Below are positions 33,709 to 62,632 of a DNA stretch of 64,000 bases, in pieces. Origin of the DNA: Gemmatimonadaceae bacterium. Lineage in GTDB: Bacteria; Gemmatimonadota; Gemmatimonadetes; Gemmatimonadales; Gemmatimonadaceae. The stretch lies in NCBI GenBank assembly GCA_020852815.1, contig JADZAN010000015.1, positions 134,840 to 198,839 on the forward strand, given 5' to 3'. A program made the translations under genes and the position numbers. The first letter of the stretch is position 1. Each line of letters opens with the position of its first letter. A model generated the notes under the pieces. That model saw only the letters and a list, made by a program, of their open reading frames with translations, was not told where the DNA came from and made no database searches.

Positions 33709-33945
33709 TCACACGGCAGGCTTGCCGATGCGCACACGCCACACCTCGGGCCCCTGCTCCAGGTACGTCCAGCCGAACTTCCCCTGGTGCTCGGCCTCGA
33801 ACTGGTAGCGCAGTGGCTTGGGGTCGTGATCGTTGATGAGGACGAACGATGCGCCCGGGGCAAGCGCGTCAAACGTCTGGAAGATCGTGGGATGCTTGTC
33901 GCGCGGGGGAATCACGCGAACGTCGAGCGTCTGCGTATCGGTCAT
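33709..33945 (-). CDS. DUF2249 protein, single domain
   Basis: The product has 78 residues from ATG 33945. It is a single DUF2249 domain with LDVRVIPPRDKHPTIFQTF, GASFVLINDHDPKPLRYQF and the closing WTYLEQGPEVWRVRI. The His/Pro-rich loops recall small metal- or heme-associated TusA-like folds. The biochemical role is not known. It is downstream of the two-domain DUF2249 gene on the same strand, 28 bp apart, in a gene run containing an oxidase and Fe-S assembly factors. Confidence 0.82.
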   Translation of the reverse strand: MTDTQTLDVRVIPPRDKHPTIFQTFDALAPGASFVLINDHDPKPLRYQFEAEHQGKFGWTYLEQGPEVWRVRIGKPAV

Positions 33946-33973: not shown

Positions 33974-34474
33974 TCATGCGGCGGCCGGAGACGGCCGGCG
34001 GATGACGAGATGCACGCGGTCCGGTGCCACGGTGCGGACCTCGTACGTGAAGCCCCGCTCCCCAAGCTTGGGAAGCAGGAACTGCGGCACGCGCACGTTC
34101 ACTTGCACCAGCGCGCGCCCATCGGGAAGCGCCTCGAGCGCCGCGAGCGTGTGCGCCATTGGCTCGGGTGGCTCCATGTCGCGCACATCGAGCACCGCGA
34201 CATCGGGATAGAACCAGACGCGCCAGTCGTCGTCCGCCAGCTGCTCGGTATGGTGCAGGAGTCCCTGCTTCGCCATCACCGCGTACAACGGCGCCGGTTC
34301 GAAGATCGCGCGGACCACCAGCGCCCCACCGTCGGGGAGTTCGCGCCGGGCCGCCATGATGCGCGAGAACGGCTCGCGGCCGGCGCGCAGCTCCTCGCGC
34401 ACGTCCACCTCGACCACTCGTGAGGCATCCACCACCTGCAACGCCAGCGGGAACTGCTCGACCAGGACGTTCAT
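33974..34474 (-). CDS. Protein with two DUF2249-like domains
   Basis: The product has 166 residues. The first half (VVEVDVREELRAGREPFSRI) and second half (VAVLDVRDMEPPEPMAHTL) both start with a DxR motif followed by a helix. Each carries a LPDGxALVV/QV strand and a G-x-x-x-x-V end, so two DUF2249 units are fused. The start overlaps the stop of the MIP18 gene by 4 bp (ATGA), so translation is coupled. Function unknown; the setting points to metal or sulfur handling for the respiratory chain. Confidence 0.75.
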   Translation of the reverse strand: MNVLVEQFPLALQVVDASRVVEVDVREELRAGREPFSRIMAARRELPDGGALVVRAIFEPAPLYAVMAKQGLLHHTEQLADDDWRVWFYPDVAVLDVRDMEPPEPMAHTLAALEALPDGRALVQVNVRVPQFLLPKLGERGFTYEVRTVAPDRVHLVIRRPSPAAA

Positions 34475-34779
34475 TTTGCTCTCTCCATGATCATGCCGGG
34501 ATGCCACGACGGATCCCACACGAGATTCGGTTCGACGTGCGAAATGCCGGGGACGTACGACACGGCGCGCACGATGCCGTTCGTGATGTGCGCCTGCATG
34601 GGGCACCCGCGCGTGGTGAGCGTGAAGGTGATCGTGGCCGTGTCTCCACTGACCTCCACGTCGTAGACCAGCCCAATGGTCACGATGTCGAGCCCGATCT
34701 CGGGATCGATCACGGTTCGCAGCGCGTCGCGGACCAGCGACTCGGTGCGCGACGAAGGCATCAGGCGCGATGGCGTCAT
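34471..34779 (-). CDS. MIP18/SufT-type metal-sulfur cluster assembly factor
   Basis: The 102-residue protein has the DUF59/MIP18 pattern: VRDALRTVIDPEIGLDIVTIGLVYDV, a strand pair TATITFTLTTRGCPM with the conserved Cys, and LVWDPSWHPGMI. Such proteins take part in maturation of Fe-S proteins. The start overlaps the Mrp stop by 4 bp, and its own stop overlaps the DUF2249 start by 4 bp. Mrp and MIP18 as neighbours are a common pair. Confidence 0.87.
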   Translation of the reverse strand: MTPSRLMPSSRTESLVRDALRTVIDPEIGLDIVTIGLVYDVEVSGDTATITFTLTTRGCPMQAHITNGIVRAVSYVPGISHVEPNLVWDPSWHPGMIMERAK

Positions 34780-35849
34780 GACGCGCTCTCCACTCCCTGC
34801 ACTTCCAGCTGCAATGCGCTGCGCACCATCTCGGCGATCGTTCGCAGGGCGCTCGCGATCTCGGCGTGCGGCGTCTGCACCATGATGGGGGCACCGCGAT
34901 CGCCGCCATCCACGGCCGACTCGTCGAACGGCAGCGCCCCCAGCAGCGGCACACCGGACGTGCGCGCGAGGTCTGCGCCCCCTCCCTTTCCGAACGGGTG
35001 CGATCGACGTCCGCACTCGCACGTGGCGTGACTCATGTTCTCCACCACGCCGAGCACGGGAACATCGAGCGTGCGGAACATCTCCACCGCCTTCGCCGCC
35101 TCCAGCGCGGCGAGTCGCTGTGGCGTCGTGACGACGATCGCCCCGTCCACCACGACCGACTGCGCCAGCGACAGCGGGACGTCGCCCGTTCCCGGCGGAA
35201 GATCCACGACGAGGATGTCGAGGCCGGGCCAAACCACTCCGCGAGAGAACTGCGTCACCGCCTTCCCCACCATCGGTCCACGCCACACGGCCGGCGACCC
35301 GGCGCCAAGAAAGAAGCCGAACGACACCACCGCGAGCCCGTGCGCCTCCAGCGGCACGATCTGCTTCTCCGGTGTCATCTGCGCGCGAAAGGCACCGTCT
35401 TCCAGCCCCAGCAGCACCGGAACCGAGGGGCCGTAGATGTCGGCGTCAAGAATGCCCACGCGCAGCCCCGACTCCTGCAGTGCCAGCGCGAGGTTCACCG
35501 CGACCGTGCTCTTCCCTACACCTCCCTTGCCGGCCCCGACGGCGATGATCCGCTGCGCCCCGGGCAGCCGCCCCTGCCGCGCCCACGGATCGCGCTCCAC
35601 CGGCTTTCGCTCGGGGGTCAGGAGCTGGACTTCCGTGCGGACGGCGCCCGCCAGTTGCAACCGCTCGACGATCGCGGCACGCAGCAGCCCGGGCACCTCC
35701 TCTCGCTCGGTGGAAAGCGTGAGCGAGACGTGCACGCGGCCGTCGCGCACCGCGACCGAGCGTACGAGGCCGAGTGCGACGATGTCACGTCGCAAACCCG
35801 GATAGGCCACCTCGGCGAGCGCGTCGCGCACCTGCTGCTCGGTCAGCAT
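34776..35849 (-). CDS. Mrp/NBP35 (ApbC) P-loop ATPase, Fe-S carrier
   Basis: The product has 357 residues. An N-terminal MIP18-like domain (1-80) is fused to the ParA-like ATPase. The deviant Walker A is GAGKGGVGKST (105-115), with GILDADIYGPSVP, VDLPPGTGDVPLSLAQ and VENMSHATCECG. The usual CxxC cluster motif near the C-terminus is replaced by Cys-Glu-Cys, so cluster binding may differ. It transfers Fe-S clusters to apo-proteins. It overlaps the regulator gene by 7 bp and the MIP18 gene by 4 bp. Confidence 0.88.
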   Translation of the reverse strand: MLTEQQVRDALAEVAYPGLRRDIVALGLVRSVAVRDGRVHVSLTLSTEREEVPGLLRAAIVERLQLAGAVRTEVQLLTPERKPVERDPWARQGRLPGAQRIIAVGAGKGGVGKSTVAVNLALALQESGLRVGILDADIYGPSVPVLLGLEDGAFRAQMTPEKQIVPLEAHGLAVVSFGFFLGAGSPAVWRGPMVGKAVTQFSRGVVWPGLDILVVDLPPGTGDVPLSLAQSVVVDGAIVVTTPQRLAALEAAKAVEMFRTLDVPVLGVVENMSHATCECGRRSHPFGKGGGADLARTSGVPLLGALPFDESAVDGGDRGAPIMVQTPHAEIASALRTIAEMVRSALQLEVQGVESAS

Positions 35850-36478
35850 GTCGCTCGTGCCACTTCATACGAACAACTGTCATCACCCTCGGGAATGTAG
35901 CTCACCCGCGTGAGGCGCGTCTCGAGAAGCTCGGCCAGGAAGCCGATCTCGGCGCGACAAGGGATGCGGGTCGCGCTCACGAGGTCACGCAGGGGACAAT
36001 GACAGAGCCGCAGGCGCGGCCCGTCATTCGTTTCCTGGACGACGGGCATGAACCCCAACTCGGAAAAGATCCTCGCCACTTCGTCGATGCGCTCGCGTCC
36101 CTCGAGATGCGCCACGCGCTCCGCCGCCTCGTGCCGGCGCCGGTCGATATACCCGGAGAAGAAGTCGCGCAGCAGCTGCTCGTTCCCGTGCTGTACGAGA
36201 TACGTCCCGAGTTCGCGCAGGATCTCGCCCTCGCGCCGAGGGAAGAGCACTTCCGAGGCGTCGGTGAGGGCGTAGGCGATCTCCGGCCGCCCCGGACCGT
36301 GGCGGGACGCCGGCTCGCGCCGAACGAGGTCGCGCGCGACCAGCGTCTTCAGGTGATCGCGCACCGTCTCGATGTTGAGCGCCAGCTCGTCAGCTAGCTG
36401 CGGGACAGTGGCGCGCCCCCGCCGCTTGAGTGCGTCGAGCAACAGGCGGTGGCGGGAAGTCATCGGTGCAGGTTGCAT
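35843..36478 (-). CDS. SufR-like helix-turn-helix regulator with Cys cluster
   Basis: The product has 211 residues. A winged helix lies in residues 8-72 (TVPQLADELALNIETVRDHL, then GPGRPEIAYALT). The C-terminal half has Cys159, Cys161, Cys174, Cys202 and Cys211, arranged as in Fe-S-sensing SufR-type repressors (CHCPL, IPC and GDDSCSY). It is therefore likely to sense Fe-S status or oxidants such as O2 or NO and to control the operon that contains it. The inverted repeat at 39643-39670 in front of ccoN is a candidate binding site. SufR in cyanobacteria recognises CAAC-N6-GTTG-like palindromes, and this one has the related GTTG ... CAAC ends. Confidence 0.7.
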   Translation of the reverse strand: MQPAPMTSRHRLLLDALKRRGRATVPQLADELALNIETVRDHLKTLVARDLVRREPASRHGPGRPEIAYALTDASEVLFPRREGEILRELGTYLVQHGNEQLLRDFFSGYIDRRRHEAAERVAHLEGRERIDEVARIFSELGFMPVVQETNDGPRLRLCHCPLRDLVSATRIPCRAEIGFLAELLETRLTRVSYIPEGDDSCSYEVARATC

Positions 36479-36488
36479 GGCACCTCCG

Positions 36489-37076
36489 TCATTCGAGGAC
36501 CCGACGCTTGATGTGATCCGCCTCGTGCTCGCCGGGACGGAGGAACTTCCAGATGCCTAACGCGAAAACCGCCACCACCAGCGCCACCGCCCCGCCCACC
36601 ACCAGCGCCGTCCCCACTCCGCCGGAGGGCGCCGAGGCATGATGCCCCGCCCCCTCGAGCAGTGCCGGCGATCCGTTTGGCGACCAGTTGCTCACCAGGT
36701 AGAAGAGCCCCCAGGCCACTATCAGGAGCAGGAGGACCCATGTGGCGGTCGGAATGGGTGCAGGGGTCTCGGCGCGTGCCGGTTCCCAGTGCTGCTCATA
36801 GCCGGCGCCATACGCGTTCACCAGGAGCGCGAGCTTCCCGTCCACCACGTCGCCATCGTGTACACCGTCGATGGCGATGCCCGGACCGTTGCGCACCGTG
36901 AACGAGACCGAGCGCACGCCGCGGCGCCCCGAGCCGTCGCGCGCAACGACGCGCAAGGTATGCACGCCGTCCTCGATGCGCGTGGTGTCGAGTTCAAAGC
37001 GCGCCGGCGGAACGTGAGTGGCGAATGGCTCCGCGGCGCCATCGAGATAGACCTCGACCAGCGACTCGTCAGGCAT
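36489..37076 (-). CDS. Ig-like, membrane-anchored protein of the oxidase cluster
   Basis: The product has 195 residues from ATG 37076, 4 bp after the cytochrome stop; a longer frame to 37124 would overlap that gene. The N-terminal half (about 1-85) is Ig-like (SLVEVYLDGAAEPF, DGVHTLRVVARDGSG and VRSVSFTVRNGP). Two membrane spans follow: TATWVLLLLIVAWGLFYLV near 110 and VGGAVALVVAVFALGIW near 165. The tail is charged. It may be an accessory subunit or assembly factor for the cbb3-like oxidase. I do not recognise a named family. Confidence 0.6.
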   Translation of the reverse strand: MPDESLVEVYLDGAAEPFATHVPPARFELDTTRIEDGVHTLRVVARDGSGRRGVRSVSFTVRNGPGIAIDGVHDGDVVDGKLALLVNAYGAGYEQHWEPARAETPAPIPTATWVLLLLIVAWGLFYLVSNWSPNGSPALLEGAGHHASAPSGGVGTALVVGGAVALVVAVFALGIWKFLRPGEHEADHIKRRVLE

Positions 37077-37080
37077 GAAT

Positions 37081-38112
37081 TCACTGCGCACGACGTCCTC
37101 CCTGCGCGCGAATGGTCGCGACATCGGCCGCGCTCACCAGCGGCGCCCGGTTTCCCCAGCTGCTCCGTTCGTGATTGATGACCGCGGCAATGTCGGCATC
37201 GGAGAGCGTCGCTCCCCAGGCGGGCATCGGGCTGGTGTAGCGCACCCCGCCAATCGTGCTCCCGCTCGCACCGAATAGCACGGTCTCGATGTGCCGAGTC
37301 GGGTCCGCCGCCGTCACCATCGCGTCGCCGGCGAGCGGTGGGAATGTGCCGGGAAGCCCGGTCCCCAACGGTTGGTGGCAGGCGGCGCAGTTGGACGCAT
37401 AGACTTTCGCCCCCTGCTCGCGCCACGCGGAGCCGTCATCGGTGCTCGTCGGCGTTGCAACTGGCGCCGCCGTCTCGCGCACCACGCCGGACGCGGGCGC
37501 GGACGACGAAGACGGCAGTGAAGCGCTGCGCAGCGCCAGGAGATAGGCCACCAGCGCACGCGCCGACTCCCTCGGCACCACCACGCCGCCGGTTGGCGCA
37601 TACGGCGCCGGAACCGTGATCGCCGAATCGCCGGCCGAGGCGCTGTCGCGCACCTCGAACAACCACGGGAATGACGGCATGACAGACCCCTGGACGACGG
37701 CGCGCGGCTGGTACAGGTGCAAGTAGTGCCACACCGCGCTCGGCTGTCGAGCCGCGATGTTGCTCAGGTCCGGCCCCGTGCGCTCCGTGCCGAGCACGCG
37801 CGGCGTGGGATGGAAGGGGCCGGTTGGCCGCAGGCGGGCATAATCGCCAGCAATCGACGCGCGGCCGTACCGCGTGGTGTCCTGCGCCAGTGGACGCACC
37901 TGCTGCGTATGGCAGTACACGCACCCCTCGGAGAGATAGACGTCGAGCCCCCGCTGCTCGAGCGCGGTGAGGGGGCGCGACCCGGGAGTTGGCGGCACCG
38001 CGCGCTGCAACCAGGCCGCCGGCGCCACCGCAACGACGACGCTCAGCGCAACGAAGCCGGCCAGCACTGTCCCGAACAGCAGGCGATGATCTTCATGGAA
38101 GTCGAGCCTCAT
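37081..38112 (-). CDS. Fused di-heme CcoO/CcoP-like cytochrome c oxidase subunit
   Basis: The 343-residue protein has an N-terminal membrane anchor (LLFGTVLAGFVALSVVV). A CcoO-like module has heme site Cys64-Val-Tyr-Cys67-His68 (GCVYCHTQQVRP) and candidate axial Met145 (SVMPSFPW). A second cytochrome c domain at the C-terminus has Cys242-Ala-Ala-Cys245-His246 and an SPMPAWG Met. Classical cbb3 oxidases use a mono-heme CcoO and a separate di-heme CcoP; here two hemes are in one chain. It passes electrons to CcoN. The start overlaps the ccoN stop by 4 bp. Confidence 0.83.
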   Translation of the reverse strand: MRLDFHEDHRLLFGTVLAGFVALSVVVAVAPAAWLQRAVPPTPGSRPLTALEQRGLDVYLSEGCVYCHTQQVRPLAQDTTRYGRASIAGDYARLRPTGPFHPTPRVLGTERTGPDLSNIAARQPSAVWHYLHLYQPRAVVQGSVMPSFPWLFEVRDSASAGDSAITVPAPYAPTGGVVVPRESARALVAYLLALRSASLPSSSSAPASGVVRETAAPVATPTSTDDGSAWREQGAKVYASNCAACHQPLGTGLPGTFPPLAGDAMVTAADPTRHIETVLFGASGSTIGGVRYTSPMPAWGATLSDADIAAVINHERSSWGNRAPLVSAADVATIRAQGGRRAQ

Positions 38113-39566
38113 GCGACGTGTGCCTCCAGCGCGACGACGTCGGTCACCGCTTGCACCTCACGGACCGTTGCCGGCCGCATCTGCCACAGGTTCCAGGCAA
38201 AGACGACGTGCGACGCCAGCATGAGCCCCCCTCCCACGGCGCGGCCGAGCCAGAAAGGCGCCATCAGCTGCACCGACTCGATGAAGGGCGCACCGGAGAG
38301 CCAGCTCAACCCGCGCAGCGTCCCGCCGATCGACAGCGCGCCGACGTACACCGTGAGCCCAACGACCGACAGCCAGAAGTGAAGCCCGATCGCCCCGTGC
38401 GACGGCTCCCGCCCGCTGAGGCGCGGGACGAGCGCGTAAACCCCTCCCCAGATGAGGAAGGCCACGAAGCCATACATGGTCAGGTGCGCGTGTCCGACGG
38501 TGAAGTCGGTGAAGTGCCACAGCTCGTTGAGCGATCGCAGGGCCTCCAGCGTCCCCTGCGTCGAGCCCACGAAGTACAGGACCACGCCGATGAGAATGAA
38601 GGGGAGCGAGTAGCTACGGGCAAACGAGCGCGTGCTCCCGCGCATGGTGAGGAGGAAGTTCCCCGTCCCCGCCACGACCGGCACCAGCATCCCCACGCTG
38701 AACACAATCGCGACGGTCTGCAGCAGCCACGGTGTAGGGCTGAAGACGAAATGGTGCCCGCCGATCATCGTGTAGAAGAGCAGCTGCGTCCAGAAGGCCA
38801 GCACGCCGAGCGAGTACGAGTAGATCGGCTTGTTGAGCAGCTTGGGAAGGAAATAGTACGCGAGGCCGAGCGACATCGGCGTGAACCACATCCCCACTCC
38901 CTGGTGCATGTAGTAGCCCTGCACCACCGTGTCGGCGAGGCCACTCTGGATCCACGGGACGTAGGCAATCACCACGAGGGTGATGGTCCACAGCAACGCC
39001 GCCAGGATGTACCAGTTGGAGATGTAGAGCTCGCGCGTGGCGCGCTGGGCGATGGTGCGATACAGCGTGATGGTGAGCAGGACCAGGGCAATCGCGAAGA
39101 GCCCCATCACCGGCCACGTGAACTCGCGAAACTCCCCCGCGCCGTTGGTGATCCCCGACAGGAGCTGCAACGCGCCGGCGAGCACCGAGAGGTTGATGAG
39201 TGCGAGCGCGATCCACGCCAGGCGATGGCTGGCAAGCGCAGTGCGGCAGGTGCGCGGCACGACCCACAGCGCCAATCCAAGCATCCCCGGCGACGCGAAG
39301 CCCCAGAAGACCAGGTTGACGTGGACTGGGCGCAGCCGTCCGAACGACAGCGCGGGGGCCACTCCCAGGTCGGGCCAGATGAACTTGAGCGAGAGATACG
39401 AGCCGACCAGCGTGCCGAGGAGGAGCCAGACCGCCGAGGTCGCGAGGTAGGCGTACACCAGTCGTGTGAGCCGCTGGTCGGTGTCGTACCGCTCGTCCAC
39501 TCGGCTCTTCGCCACCGTCAGGGGGCGCGCGACATGCGCCGCTATCGCTGAGGTTCCCACCGCCAA
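38109..39566 (-). CDS. ccoN: cbb3-type cytochrome c oxidase subunit I
   Basis: The product has 485 residues with twelve or so hydrophobic helices. Heme-copper residues are visible: His82 (PVHVNLVFWGF) for low-spin heme, His221 (YYMHQGVGMW), His271-His272 (GGHHFVFSPTP) for CuB, and His359/His361 (GHAHLTMYGF) for the hemes. Tyr251 in IYSYSLG matches the helix VII tyrosine cross-linked in C-type oxidases. This favours an oxygen reductase over nitric oxide reductase. First gene of the operon. A perfect inverted repeat lies 77-104 bp upstream of the start. Confidence 0.88.
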   Translation of the reverse strand: MAVGTSAIAAHVARPLTVAKSRVDERYDTDQRLTRLVYAYLATSAVWLLLGTLVGSYLSLKFIWPDLGVAPALSFGRLRPVHVNLVFWGFASPGMLGLALWVVPRTCRTALASHRLAWIALALINLSVLAGALQLLSGITNGAGEFREFTWPVMGLFAIALVLLTITLYRTIAQRATRELYISNWYILAALLWTITLVVIAYVPWIQSGLADTVVQGYYMHQGVGMWFTPMSLGLAYYFLPKLLNKPIYSYSLGVLAFWTQLLFYTMIGGHHFVFSPTPWLLQTVAIVFSVGMLVPVVAGTGNFLLTMRGSTRSFARSYSLPFILIGVVLYFVGSTQGTLEALRSLNELWHFTDFTVGHAHLTMYGFVAFLIWGGVYALVPRLSGREPSHGAIGLHFWLSVVGLTVYVGALSIGGTLRGLSWLSGAPFIESVQLMAPFWLGRAVGGGLMLASHVVFAWNLWQMRPATVREVQAVTDVVALEAHVA

Positions 39567-39642
39567 TCGCTCATCTCGTCTCGAGGACCGCCAGTCGCGG
39601 GATCGCCGCGTGGTGTGGAGAGAGAATGGACTTGGGGATTCG

Positions 39643-39670
39643 TGTTGTCAAGGGATTTTCCTTGACAACA
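39643..39670. promoter_or_regulatory. Perfect 11-bp inverted repeat, candidate operator of the oxidase operon
   Basis: TGTTGTCAAGG (39643-39653) and CCTTGACAACA (39660-39670) are exact reverse complements around the 6-bp centre GATTTT. Each arm holds TTGACA. On the minus strand TTGACA is followed, 17 bp on, by CATTCT, so a ccoN promoter would overlap the palindrome. It lies between divergent ccoN and the amidohydrolase gene and could serve both. Confidence 0.65.
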
Positions 39671-41248: not shown

Positions 41249-41410
41249 TCCACCTTCCCAGCGAAAGCTGGGACCCATTTGTCGTTGCGTGCGGCACGAG
41301 CGGTGGCCGCTTGGCGTGAAACTACAATATCACGCGAAGCCCCCACCGTCCCAGCGAAAGCTGGGACCCATTTGTCGTTGCGCGCGGCACGAGCGGTCGC
41401 CCCCGCACGC
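41249..41410. repeat. Dispersed composite repeat, copies 3 and 4
   Basis: Two CCCAGC-GAAA-GCTGGG hairpins, near 41253-41268 and 41350-41365, are each followed by ACCCATTTGTCGTTGCG and a GGCACGAGCGGT tract. The first copy continues into a GTGAAACTACAATATCACGCGAAG end. They fill the gap between the convergent amidohydrolase gene and the broken gene at 41454. Confidence 0.85.
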
Positions 41411-44615: not shown

Positions 44616-45335
44616 TCAGGCAACCGGTTGGTTGGGGCGTGTTCCCGTGGTCGGGACACCGGGGATGGTGCCTGGCGTGTTGGGGTTGTCCGGCGTGGTG
44701 CGCGGCGGGTCGCACGGCTCCTCGCACTGCCAGTGCCGGTACCAGTGCATCGTACGCACTCGGCGCGGCGGCTCCCCTTGCGCCACTTCGCAGGTGATCG
44801 TGGCCTCCGCCTGCACGGTGAGCGTGACCTTGACGCACTGCTCGTACGCCCCGGTGACGAGCACCTCCGCCGTCGCATCGCCCGCCTGCGCCCCTGCAGG
44901 GACGGTGTAGGCCAGCGCCACATCCCCCGCACCACCGGGGGCGAGCTGCAGCTGACCGGGCGCGACAGCGATCTTCCCCGCCAGCGGCGACGACAGGTCG
45001 GTGGAGGCGATGGCGAAACTCCGCGCCACCTTCCCCGTGTTGCGCACGCGAATCGTGGCGCGGAATGTCTCACCGGGGCTCCCCTCCCAGTGCAGCTCGC
45101 AGACGCAATGCGGCGGGCAGTCGGTCTCGGGGATGTCGCACCCACAGTCCTCGCTCCCGGTCGCCGTGCGGCGCAGCGTATCGAGTGACGGGATGGCCGG
45201 CATCGTCGCCGAGGCGCGGGAGACGAAGTCGCGCGCACTCTCCATCGACAGGACGAGGAGTCGCGGCGCCACCGTCAGCAGGTCGGCCGCCGCCGGCGCC
45301 GACGCGCTGGTGTGCTTCATGGATACACGGCTCAT
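44616..45335 (-). CDS. Ig-like protein with Cys-rich segment and Pro-rich tail
   Basis: The product has 239 residues from ATG 45335, overlapping the upstream stop by 4 bp. Residues 65-80 hold a Cys cluster (DCGCDIPETDCPPHCVCEL). An Ig-like domain follows (SPGETFRATIRVRNTGKV, LQLAPGGAGDVALAYTVPAG). Near the end are MHWYRHWQCEEPCDPP and a Pro/Thr-rich tail. The paired cysteines could bind metal. There is no signal peptide. Confidence 0.6.
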   Translation of the reverse strand: MSRVSMKHTSASAPAAADLLTVAPRLLVLSMESARDFVSRASATMPAIPSLDTLRRTATGSEDCGCDIPETDCPPHCVCELHWEGSPGETFRATIRVRNTGKVARSFAIASTDLSSPLAGKIAVAPGQLQLAPGGAGDVALAYTVPAGAQAGDATAEVLVTGAYEQCVKVTLTVQAEATITCEVAQGEPPRRVRTMHWYRHWQCEEPCDPPRTTPDNPNTPGTIPGVPTTGTRPNQPVA

Positions 45336-57186: not shown

Positions 57187-58754
57187 AGCGGCATCTCGTT
57201 CTCCCACTGCTCACACTCGTTGCGCCTGCCCTGCAGGCGCAACGTTCGTCCGCTCCTGCGCCGCTCGCCGCGCGCACGGTCGACTCCATCGTCGCCGTCG
57301 CACTCAGGACCTTCCCCACGCCCGGGGTCGCCGTCGCCGTCATCCAGGATGGCAAGGTGGTCGTCGCGAAGGGGTATGGCGTGAAGAAGGTCGGCGAGTC
57401 CGCGCCGGTGACGCCGCAGACGCGCTTCGGCATCGCGTCCAACACGAAGGTCTTCACCGCGATTGCGCTGGGGATGCTGGTGGAGGAGGGGAAGCTTGCA
57501 TGGGACGCGCCGGTGATTCGCTACCTGCCGCAGTTTGCCATGTACGATCCCTTCGTCACGCGCGAGATCACGGTGAAGGATCTGCTCGTGCATCGCAGTG
57601 GGCTCGGACTCGGCGCTGGCGATCTGCTCTGGTGGCCGGCCTCGACGTACAACCGCGCCGAGATCATGCGGCGGCTGCGCTACATCAAGCCGGCCACGTC
57701 ATTTCGCTCGGCGTACGCCTATGACAACGTGCTCTATCTCGTGGCCGGCGAGATCATCGAGGCGGTGAGTGGGATGCCGTGGGAGCGGTTCATCGAGACG
57801 CGCATCCTGCACAAGGTAGGCATGACGCACAGCACGTCGCGACATGGCGACGCCGTCTCGCCGGGCGACGTGGCGCAGACGCACACGCTCCTCGAGGGGA
57901 GGCTCACGGCGATCGCTCCCATGACGAGTGACAACACCAATCCTGCCGGCGGGATCAACAGCGGCGCCGAGGACATGGCGAAGTGGGTGCTGTCGCTCCT
58001 GGATTCGGGCAAAGTGGGAGATGGGAGCCGGTTGTACCTGCCGGCGACGGCACGGATGATCCAGGCACCGGTGACGCCGATGCCTAACGGCTCCCCGCCA
58101 GCGGAGCTCGCCCCGCTGGCCAGCGACTTCTCGTTCTACGCGCTGGGGCTCGACGTGGGGACGTATCGCGGGCGCAAGATCCTGCACCACACCGGAGGGC
58201 TTCCCGGCTACCTGTCGTCGGTGGCGTGGATCCCGTCGGAGCGCGCGGGCGTGGTGGTGCTCACCAACGATGAGTCGCCGACCTTCCTGGCGCTCACGTG
58301 GACGCTGATGGAGCGCGTACTGCGTGTGTCACGGCCGTTCGACTTCCTGGCCGGTTACGATGCGTTGCTCAAGCGCCAGCGGCAGGGTCTCGCCGCCGCA
58401 GCCCGCGAGGCGCACGCGGCGCGCGATTCGCTCTCGCGTCCGTCTCTGGCGCTGGAGAAGTACGCGGGCGGCTACGAGGACGCCTGGTATGGCGACATCG
58501 ACATCGCGCAGGAGAAGGGAGGACTGGCGATTCGCTTCTCACACAGCCCGCAGCTGGTCGGCGATCTGGTCCCCTGGCAGCATGACACCTTCCTGGTGCG
58601 GTGGCGCGACCGCGAACTGCGCGCCGACGCCTACATCACCTTCATGCTCACGCCGGACGGAGGCGTCGATCACGCGAAGATGGTGCCGGCGTCACCGGAT
58701 GTGGATTTCTCGTTCGATTTCCAGGACCTGGAGTTGAAGCCGCGGCGGCGCTGA
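57183..58754 (+). CDS. Exported serine hydrolase, class C beta-lactamase fold
   Basis: The product has 523 residues, GTG start and a signal (LPLLTLVAPALQAQ). Catalytic Ser86-x-x-Lys89 (SNTK), Tyr180-x-Asn182 (YDN) and His336-Thr-Gly (HHTGG) fit the penicillin-binding/esterase family. A C-terminal DUF3471-like beta domain follows (YAGGYEDAWYGDI). Substrates of this group include D-amino acid peptides and esters. Translationally coupled to the S9 peptidase. A strong hairpin just past the stop may end the transcript. Confidence 0.85.
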   Translation: MKRHLVLPLLTLVAPALQAQRSSAPAPLAARTVDSIVAVALRTFPTPGVAVAVIQDGKVVVAKGYGVKKVGESAPVTPQTRFGIASNTKVFTAIALGMLVEEGKLAWDAPVIRYLPQFAMYDPFVTREITVKDLLVHRSGLGLGAGDLLWWPASTYNRAEIMRRLRYIKPATSFRSAYAYDNVLYLVAGEIIEAVSGMPWERFIETRILHKVGMTHSTSRHGDAVSPGDVAQTHTLLEGRLTAIAPMTSDNTNPAGGINSGAEDMAKWVLSLLDSGKVGDGSRLYLPATARMIQAPVTPMPNGSPPAELAPLASDFSFYALGLDVGTYRGRKILHHTGGLPGYLSSVAWIPSERAGVVVLTNDESPTFLALTWTLMERVLRVSRPFDFLAGYDALLKRQRQGLAAAAREAHAARDSLSRPSLALEKYAGGYEDAWYGDIDIAQEKGGLAIRFSHSPQLVGDLVPWQHDTFLVRWRDRELRADAYITFMLTPDGGVDHAKMVPASPDVDFSFDFQDLELKPRRR

Positions 58755-58776: not shown

Positions 58777-58803
58777 GGGCGCCGGTGTCGCTCACCGGCG
58801 CCC
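58777..58803. terminator. Bidirectional hairpin terminator between convergent genes
   Basis: GGGCGCCGGTG (58777-58787) pairs perfectly with CACCGGCGCCC (58793-58803) around TCGCT. It sits midway between the convergent stops at 58754 and 58832. Only a short CTGTTG follows, so the T-tract is weak. Confidence 0.6.
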
Positions 58804-60772: not shown

Positions 60773-62632
60773 ATGCATCGTCAACCCATGCTCCGCCAGC
60801 CACAGTTCCGCCGCATCGCAGGTTCCGCGCGCCTCGTGCAGGCGTTGGCGGTGGTCGCGCTTTCGTTCGTCGCTGCGCCGCTCGCGGCGCAACAGGAAGT
60901 GGTCGACTCCACCACGCTGCGCCAGCTCTACGCCGACGAGATGGCCAAGGGCGAGGTGATGTCGATTGCCAGTTGGCTCACCGACGTGCACGGCCCGCGC
61001 CTCACCGGGTCGCCAGGCGCAAGGGCGGCGGGGGAGTGGGCGGTGAAGACGATGAAGGAGTGGGGGCTGGCCAACGTCGGCTTCGAGTACTGGAGCCCCA
61101 AGTTTCCCGGGTGGCGCAACGACCATCTGACGTTGCGCGTGGTGGCACCGCTGGCGTTCGACGTCGCCGTGGCGCCGCGCGCCTGGTCGCCGAGCACCAG
61201 GGGAGCGGTGAAGGGGGAGGCGGTCGTGGCAATGCTGGGCTCGTGGGGCGATACGGCGAAGTACGCCGGGACGCTCAAGGGGAAGTTCGTCCTCCTTGGC
61301 GCGGCGCCGACGCTCGCGCCGCACGCCAAGCCCGACGCCAAGCGCTACTCTGACGAGGAGCTCGACAAGATGGCCGGCGCCGGCGTCCCCGACCCTCGCA
61401 CGGGTGGCTTCGCGATCCCGCGCGACCCGGCGGCCATGGGAAACATGGCGCGCCGCTTTGGCGGAAACGCCTTCCGTCCGGCGAACGACACCGCGGCGCT
61501 GCGCTGGTTCGCGAGGCAGGGTGTGGTGGGGATCCTCCTCCCCGCGCGCGGCGACGATGGGACCATCTTCACCGACAACGGCTATCCGCGAACGGCCGGC
61601 GTGGCGCTGGTGCCGATGGTGCACGTGGCGGGGGAGCACTACGGGCGCATTGCGCGCATCCTCGAGAAGGGCGTTCCCGTCACGCTCTCGCTCGACATGG
61701 CCAATACCCAAACGCCGGAAGCCGAATCGTTCAACATTGTCGCCGAGATCCCGGGGAGCGATCCGGCGCTCAAGGACGAAGTCGTGATGCTTGGCGCGCA
61801 CTTCGACTCGTGGCATGCGGCCACGGGGGCGACCGACAACGCCGCGGGGTCTGCGGTGATGATGGAGGCGATACGGTTGATCAAGGCGAGCGGGCTCAAG
61901 CCGCGCCGCACCATCCGCATCGGCTTGTGGACCGGCGAGGAGCAGGGCTTGTTCGGGTCGCGCGAGTACGTGGCGCGCCACTTCGGCGAGCGCGTCTTCA
62001 GGAGCGACTCGTCAGGCTTTGCCCCTACCGATACCGTGCGGGCGCTGCCGGAGTACGAGAAGCACGCCGGCTACTTCAACGTCGACAACGGGACTGGGCG
62101 CATCCGCGGTGTGTATCTGCAGGGGAACACGCAGGTGCAGGATGCATTCAGCGCCTGGATCACCCCGTTCAAGGACAAGGGAGTGACGACCGTGACGCCG
62201 GCCAACACCAGCGGGACCGACCATCAGGCGTTCGACGCCGTCGGGCTGGGCGGGTGGCAGTTCATCCAGGACCCCGTCGACTACGACACGCGCACGCACC
62301 ACTCCAACCAGGACGTGTACGAGCGGCTGGTGCCGGACGACATGAAGCACAACGCCGCGGTGGTCGCGGGCTTCGTGTGGCAGGCGGCGCAGCGGTCGAC
62401 CAAGCTGCCCGGGAAGGCGGGGTGGCCGGTTGTGGTGAGCGACAAGAAGGCGAAGGCGGTGTCGGAGTGGGGGGGGCGAATTCTGGGGGTCGAATTTGGG
62501 GCGAATTTGGGGTCAGAGTCAGCGAGAATTTGGTTCGCTGACTCTGACCCCAAACGGCGGATTCTCAACTGGCGTCGGCGAGGATCTCCCGAATTCCCTG
62601 TACGATCTCGTCCGCCGTCGCCTCGTACTTGA
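60773..62632 (+). CDS. M28-family aminopeptidase with altered C-terminus
   Basis: The product has 619 residues with a signal (VQALAVVALSFVAAPLAAQ). The di-zinc site is visible: His343 (GAHFDSWH), Asp355 (GATDNAAGS), Glu389-Glu390 (GEEQG) and His509 or His510 (THHSNQD). A PA-like insert lies before it (residues 190-290). The natural protein seems to end near residue 565; from there a 49-bp palindrome and antisense sco1 3' sequence supply about 50 extra residues (GGRILGVEFG onward). It overlaps the 3' end of the convergent sco1 gene by 68 bp. Confidence 0.85.
   Translation: MHRQPMLRQPQFRRIAGSARLVQALAVVALSFVAAPLAAQQEVVDSTTLRQLYADEMAKGEVMSIASWLTDVHGPRLTGSPGARAAGEWAVKTMKEWGLANVGFEYWSPKFPGWRNDHLTLRVVAPLAFDVAVAPRAWSPSTRGAVKGEAVVAMLGSWGDTAKYAGTLKGKFVLLGAAPTLAPHAKPDAKRYSDEELDKMAGAGVPDPRTGGFAIPRDPAAMGNMARRFGGNAFRPANDTAALRWFARQGVVGILLPARGDDGTIFTDNGYPRTAGVALVPMVHVAGEHYGRIARILEKGVPVTLSLDMANTQTPEAESFNIVAEIPGSDPALKDEVVMLGAHFDSWHAATGATDNAAGSAVMMEAIRLIKASGLKPRRTIRIGLWTGEEQGLFGSREYVARHFGERVFRSDSSGFAPTDTVRALPEYEKHAGYFNVDNGTGRIRGVYLQGNTQVQDAFSAWITPFKDKGVTTVTPANTSGTDHQAFDAVGLGGWQFIQDPVDYDTRTHHSNQDVYERLVPDDMKHNAAVVAGFVWQAAQRSTKLPGKAGWPVVVSDKKAKAVSEWGGRILGVEFGANLGSESARIWFADSDPKRRILNWRRRGSPEFPVRSRPPSPRT
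62506..62554. repeat. Perfect 20-bp inverted repeat (GGGGTCAGAGTC type)
   Basis: TTTGGGGTCAGAGTCAGCGA (62506-62525) is followed, after a 9-base loop, by its exact reverse complement (62535-62554). Upstream, GTCGAATTTGGGGCGAATTTGGGG repeats GAATTTGGGG. GGGGTCAGAGTC/GACTCTGACCCC palindromes are familiar as REP-like elements near transposases in many bacteria. It lies at the join of two convergent genes and could act as a terminator. Confidence 0.85.

Follow-up and report, generated by a model that had tools for sequence, protein, structure and literature searches.

A conserved inverted repeat before ccoN in a Gemmatimonadaceae genome as a putative operator for the SufR-like regulator encoded in the same operon

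Genes, repeat and promoter at the ccoN locus

The window analysed here, a 64,000-nucleotide stretch of a Gemmatimonadaceae genome, contains an unstranded inverted repeat (TGTTGTCAAGG-GATTTT-CCTTGACAACA, positions 39643-39670) between the diverging ccoN (minus strand) and amidohydrolase (plus strand) genes. Its 11-bp arms, at 39643-39653 and 39660-39670, are perfectly complementary, as a sequence-only reading of this DNA had stated, but the "perfect 28-bp palindrome" of that reading is strictly an interrupted inverted repeat, since the 6-bp centre GATTTT is not self-complementary. On the strength of its sequence and its conservation we regard it as a putative operator, with TCAAGG-N6-CCTTGA (39648-39665) as the conserved core.

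Downstream of the repeat, the minus strand carries a tight run of called genes, with overlaps or gaps of no more than 28 bp between neighbours. The run begins with ccoN, for a cbb3-type oxidase subunit I (38109-39566; COX1, PF00115; closest solved structure 3mk7; NCBIfam ccoN model below cut-off), and a ccoO with a fused cytochrome c domain (37081-38112; FixO, Cytochrom_C and Cytochrome_CBB3). These are followed by a membrane protein with no Pfam or NCBIfam match that is kept in the relative G260 (36489-37076), a SufR-like winged-helix regulator with the cysteine pattern C161-X12-C174-X27-C202, which is the proposed binder of the repeat (35843-36478), an Mrp/ApbC-type Fe-S carrier (34776-35849; ParA/NUBPL, PF10609; ApbC model below cut-off), a DUF59-type Fe-S assembly protein (34471-34779; PF01883) and two DUF2249 proteins (33974-34474 and 33709-33945). 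The second of these is the final gene of the run, separated by 184 bp from the next called gene.

When CcoN was aligned with the solved cbb3 subunit (3mk7), the histidines for heme and CuB, like the tyrosine of the helix, fell in register at what we take to be their positions in the solved protein, and an oxygen reductase is therefore the plain reading. The same alignment places TQGT of CcoN (window 38109-39566) where 3mk7 has FEGP, with Gln in place of the Glu of the solved cbb3 enzyme. In G260, G242, G096, G223 and G181 a protein of ~409 aa separates Mrp from DUF59; it is missing from the window operon (at ~34776); in G260 (L032:10364-11593) it looks membrane-like by eye and has no Pfam or NCBIfam match.

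A promoter TTGACA-N17-CATTCT overlapping the repeat had been proposed for the ccoN strand. The minus strand does read so, with the -35 box TTGACA (39646-39651) inside the ccoN-side arm and the -10 box CATTCT (39623-39628) 17 bp from it, and both the spacing and the -10 box proved conserved. Across 15 aligned sites, which share descent and therefore do not amount to 15 independent cases, although their spacer sequences differ widely, the proximal arm oriented to the regulator or operon reads TTGACA in seven and TTGA in all 15. The A2 and T6 of the -10 box occur together at spacer 17 in 14 of the 15, and in at most two at each of the other spacers from 12 to 22; a first site set, scanned over spacers 10 to 30, had them at spacer 17 in 10 of 11. 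This promoter is absent from the listing of a sigma-70 scan of the window because CATTCT matches TATAAT in only three of six positions. An alternative sigma-70 promoter from the generic scan, on the same strand at 39684-39655, was rejected, its features being found in one of the 15 aligned sites, the window's own. The centre of the repeat precedes the inferred start of the ccoN transcript by ~40 bp.

In the 5.38-Mb window genome the inverted repeat occurs once, even with 3 mismatches allowed in its 16 fixed bases; the idea of a global regulon was therefore dropped. When the whole window was shuffled 12 times with its dinucleotides preserved, perfect repeats with arms of at least 11 and loops of at most 12 (nested repeats counted separately) numbered 0, 0, 0, 0, 1, 0, 0, 0, 0, 0, 1 and 5, as compared with 6, at 4 places, in the real one, and just 23 of 3000 shuffles of the 188-bp intergenic stretch contained even a 9-bp arm. 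By itself, therefore, the repeat is unusual yet not unheard of, and it is not decisive; what is decisive is conservation.

Other repeats were observed in the window. Two further perfect inverted repeats with short loops lie at 57218-57244 and 58777-58803 (12- and 11-bp arms), and a REP/REPIN-like inverted repeat with 20-bp arms (TTTGGGGTCAGAGTC...) lies at 62506-62554, its 15-mer arm having 21 genomic copies, several of them as facing pairs ~34 bp apart. A 59-bp direct repeat (41250-41308 and 41343-41401), with copies 95% alike, contains the inverted repeat CCAGC-GAAA-GCTGG.

Occurrence of the site among regulator loci

Three sources supplied 24 regulator loci: the order (288 genomes), a sample of the phylum (395 genomes) and named genomes covered by a pattern-limited scan. 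Of the 288 order genomes, 11, the window's among them, encode the regulator or a close relative of it, the other ten being 47-77% identical; the other SufR-type matches listed have 25-35% identity. The sequence-only reading had turned on whether the palindrome is absent from orthologous loci that keep the regulator, and the answer is divided: the exact core (CAAGR-N6-YCTTG) is present at the promoter in 12 of the 24, degenerate copies in G181 and an acidobacterial bin (L096) raise this to 14, and the other 10 hold no recognisable site. Self-control by the Cys-rich regulator, which the same reading had put forward, is supported by the 12 exact sites, all of which lie at the promoter of the regulator or its operon, 10 of them within 600 bp before the regulator and 2 heading a ccoN operon. 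An estimate made for 24 stretches, each of 600 bp, with equal base frequencies, two versions and 10 fixed bases, gives ~0.03 sites as the chance expectation. Among the site-less loci, four (G397, G359a, G313a and G313b) have a regulator start less than 50 bp from the upstream gene. The others (G282, L095, G374, G376, G359b and G401) do not have a close upstream gene as an explanation. At the Thermoleophilia locus L095, where no site was found, just 146 bp precede the called regulator start.

Within the order, TCAAGG-N6-CCTTGA is exact at the promoter in 9 of the 11 regulator genomes, carries one mismatch in a tenth (G181) and is absent in G282. The core also stands before ccoN on a short contig of G261, a member of the window's genus in whose 74%-complete assembly a close relative of the regulator was not found. 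Both arms have changed together, from GG/CC to GA/TC, in G438, G345 and G366, which belong to one family; the arms read CAAGA/TCTTG there, and the corresponding regulators form one clade (support 100/98); such a symmetrical change is as expected for a site read by a dimer. In the window and in G260 the site lies ~3.2 kb from the regulator gene, and its link to the regulator there thus rests on operon structure.

Some loci show further arrangements of operator-like sequence. Two near-identical operator regions occur in G242 (L033:6261 and L033:8955), one preceding the regulator and one an intact ScdA_N gene, and an ScdA_N-like start beside the first copy continues into unrelated sequence. In G282 (L041:6800-6860), which does not have the TCAAGG core, GGTGGTATTTACCACC lies before the regulator with TTGTCAAT and ATTGACA on its flanks, and may be an operator that has drifted. 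In G401 (L184:4158-4200), TGTCAAGGTTGTG is followed 20-odd bases on by CCTTGACA and 17 bases later by CAATCT, as if half-sites had moved apart.

Scanning the order for exact TCAAGG-N6-CCTTGA returned 60 copies in 48 of the 288 genomes, and no genome had more than one copy at the promoter. All 11 copies in the 12 locus-bearing genomes fall in the locus, 10 at the promoter and 1 before a neighbouring ScdA_N gene; of the remaining 49 copies, 45 were examined, and 40 of these are inside called coding sequence. The surroundings of 20 SufR-type paralogue loci, 81.5 kb in all, contained no CAAGR-N6-YCTTG. Relatives of ccoN are present in 52 of the 288 order genomes at E 1e-60 or better, and the exact core lies beside ccoN only in the three members of the window's genus; the genome with the next closest ccoN (G202, 55%) has no core copy. 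At nine other tested order regulator loci (L033-L041), a ccoN of this kind was not found. The core is thus present at regulator loci without ccoN and absent at other ccoN genes, which ties the site to the regulator, whose gene it accompanies through otherwise differing neighbourhoods. The site, its promoter geometry and its link to the regulator can be regarded as established at the level of sequence, and it is very likely that 39643-39670 is the site of the operon's own regulator.

The regulator and described systems

The regulator matches the Pfam models HTH_20, HTH_24 and HTH_IclR above cut-off and MarR models below it, and had no match to Rrf2 (NsrR/IscR) at E 0.001 or better in the Pfam search. 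Against TIGR02702 (SufR_cyano), a model made for cyanobacteria, it scores 45.6 bits, the curated cut-off being 178.8. An AlphaFold2 model (mean pLDDT 84.9, pTM 0.62) contains the winged helix. The 50 Foldseek matches shown were partial and mostly to winged-helix proteins (query TM 0.23-0.34), and 8 sequence matches among solved structures covered at most the first 82 residues, so that the C-terminal half gained no information from these comparisons. C161, C174 and C202 are invariant in both regulator alignments (A1, 11 rows; A2, 13 rows) and are the probable ligands of an Fe-S cluster.

In a tree, the 24 regulators split at 100/100 from 15 SufR-type proteins of the order, among them the window genome's own suf-linked SufR. 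This second SufR-like gene stands elsewhere, before sufB (G000:C39), where apparent sufC, D, S and U were also seen by eye; among Pfam and NCBIfam matches, no suf genes were found in the window operon. The earlier statement that the operon encodes a SufR-type repressor holds as far as the SufR-like winged helix and the cysteine spacing are concerned, but the protein belongs to a separate clade and is encoded outside a suf operon. Judged by its clade, by the suf-linked SufR encoded elsewhere and by a site unlike CAAC-N6-GTTG, the regulator is not SufR itself.

SufR is reported to bind CAAC-N6-GTTG (PMC8593673; PMC11995493). The GTTG ... CAAC ends of the repeat had been likened to such sites, a resemblance that fails: their order is reversed, and the outer bases are present on both sides in one of the 15 sites, the window's own. 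A SufR-type site is ruled out, the conserved part being TCAAGR-N6-YCTTGA; the window has a single CAAC-N6-GTTG, which lies far from the repeat, at 44621. What the regulator does share with the SufR of cyanobacteria, Mycobacterium and Streptomyces is the winged helix, an autoregulatory (here putative) site over its own promoter, and C-terminal cysteines; their X12/X27 spacing is also that of M. tuberculosis SufR, where C203, C216 and C244 are described as needed for complementation (PMC6034842). It differs in forming a clade apart from the 15 suf-type proteins, in an operon of cbb3, Mrp, DUF59 and DUF2249 genes without suf, and in a site that covers the -35, whereas S. avermitilis SufR is reported over the -10 (PMC11995493).

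Another described protein with shared features is ArnR of Corynebacterium, a SufR-reminiscent winged helix with three cysteines and a [4Fe-4S] cluster, which is described as repressing nitrate-respiration and nitric-oxide genes and as losing DNA binding with NO (PMC12343034). Compared by description in that source, it differs in its cysteines (179, 193 and 223, thus X13/X29) and in its targets, narKGHJI and hmp. The NsrR-NsrS-NsrT set of the Thermus nic cluster, a nitrite/NO cluster, is reported to place an Fe-S regulator beside ScdA-domain and cupin genes (PMC5748679), an arrangement comparable to that in G242, G252, G237 and G345. Thermus NsrR is, however, of the Rrf2 type, whereas the regulator here matches HTH_20/HTH_24/IclR-type helices.

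FNR, CRP and FixK boxes are inverted repeats before ccoN operons, near -35/-41, and the present site is likewise an inverted repeat in that region of a ccoN promoter. It differs in half-site and spacing and is tied to a local regulator; the sequence-only reading had rightly set it apart from TTGAT-N4-ATCAA, the conserved core being TCAAGR-N6-YCTTGA. In a MerR-type operator the repeat lies within a long -35/-10 spacer, whereas here the spacer is 17 and the repeat lies over the -35. FNR and MerR boxes are thus ruled out by spacing and place. Among the papers listed from open-access literature on SufR, DUF2249, ScdA/DUF59 with NO, Gemmatimonad cbb3 and the operator sequence, we recognised no description of this site or regulator.

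Proposed control of the operon and its signal

From these observations we infer that a dimer binds and represses, that it has an Fe-S cluster, and what it senses. A regulator homodimer would place one winged helix on each TCAAGG half-site, the half-site centres being 12 bp apart, about one helical turn. As the ccoN-side half-site doubles as the -35 box, bound regulator would block RNA polymerase and thereby repress the unit ccoN-ccoO-ORF-regulator-mrp-DUF59-DUF2249-DUF2249, its own gene included. The Fe-S cluster would be held on C161, C174 and C202; damage to it, most likely by nitric oxide, would free the DNA, and this release would switch on the oxidase along with the Fe-S carrier proteins. 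As a whole, the explanation that the operon's SufR-like regulator autorepresses at the inverted repeat, with a dimer covering the -35, seems reasonably likely on the comparative evidence.

The same regulator could instead activate from the same site, a dimer ~40 bp upstream of the start and touching the -35 recruiting RNA polymerase, as class II activators do, and helping the poor -10 CATTCT. A weak -10 and an operator centred near -40 would suit such a role, and the Thermus regulator NsrR, whose gene neighbours in the nic cluster include ScdA-domain and cupin genes, is reported to act both ways (PMC5748679). We nevertheless consider activation unlikely, in view of a -35 box (TTGACA in 7 of 15 sites, TTGA in 15 of 15) better than expected of an activator-dependent promoter and of the repression ascribed to SufR proteins in the descriptions available; provided that the site is the regulator's, repression is the probable mode.

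It is quite improbable that another trans factor, of the CRP/FNR/DNR, Rrf2 or MerR type, uses the site and that the SufR-like gene is linked to it by operon membership alone. The half-sites do hold TTGA/TCAA like FNR-type boxes, and SoxR-type boxes contain the similar TCAAG...CTTGA, but the N6 between TCAAGG and CCTTGA is unlike the N4 of TTGAT-N4-ATCAA, MerR-type sites sit within the spacer rather than over the -35, and the promoter copies, at most one per genome in the order scan, track the SufR-like gene across differing neighbourhoods. Least probable of all is a role as RNA, either as a terminator or as a hairpin in the 5' UTR: a perfect stem of 11 bp closed by a 6-base loop would fold, yet on the inferred start site the repeat is upstream of the ccoN transcript, and in relatives it keeps the same promoter position before the regulator. 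The diverging flanking genes need no terminator, a scan found no terminator-like site, and a terminator or RNA hairpin was rejected on these grounds.

As to what autorepression by the SufR-like regulator would respond to, the gene neighbours in relatives offer indications. ScdA_N genes lie near the regulator in G242, G252, G237, G345, G438 and G374, accompanied in the first four by a cupin gene, and in G242 a nirK above cut-off lies ~6 kb from the regulator. DUF59 and DUF2249 genes near the regulator were identified in relatives, partly by eye (PF01883 in G260), and COX1-related membrane proteins near it score above cut-off in G252 and just below in G242 and G345. Together with Mrp, the ScdA_N-cupin pairs, nirK, DUF2249 and DUF59 suggest an NO or Fe-S damage signal. 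DUF2249 proteins have been tied to Haloferax denitrification and to Thermus nitrate respiration (PMC11218638, PMC6282519), and M. tuberculosis SufR is stated, in a paper citing other work (PMC9045647), to lose repression when NO or ROS damage the cluster. Given these neighbours and the Thermus NsrR, DUF2249, SufR and ArnR precedents, nitric oxide is our best guess, with oxygen or Fe-S shortage next. Several observations speak against the NO reading: no ScdA_N gene was found in the window genome, so that the link to NO comes from relatives; the window operon has no ~409-aa gene; and some regulator loci, such as G231, have none of the Mrp, DUF59 and DUF2249 genes. We regard the case for nitric oxide as the main signal as evenly poised.

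More tentatively still, and with slightly less than even confidence, the regulators may form a clade of SufR-like Fe-S repressors that is distinct and apparently undescribed, extends across Gemmatimonadota and, as outliers, into bins of Acidobacteria and Thermoleophilia, has its own operator and works as an NO/Fe-S-damage switch where NsrR or FNR is used elsewhere, the window's genus having placed a cbb3 oxidase under this switch. To our knowledge, gene control in Gemmatimonadota is little studied, and the present analysis yields a testable regulator-operator pair for the phylum. It predicts that a terminal oxidase would be switched jointly with Fe-S carrier and repair-type genes. As a part in nitrogen-oxide turnover is under discussion for the Gemmatimonadota of soils, an NO switch there would be useful.
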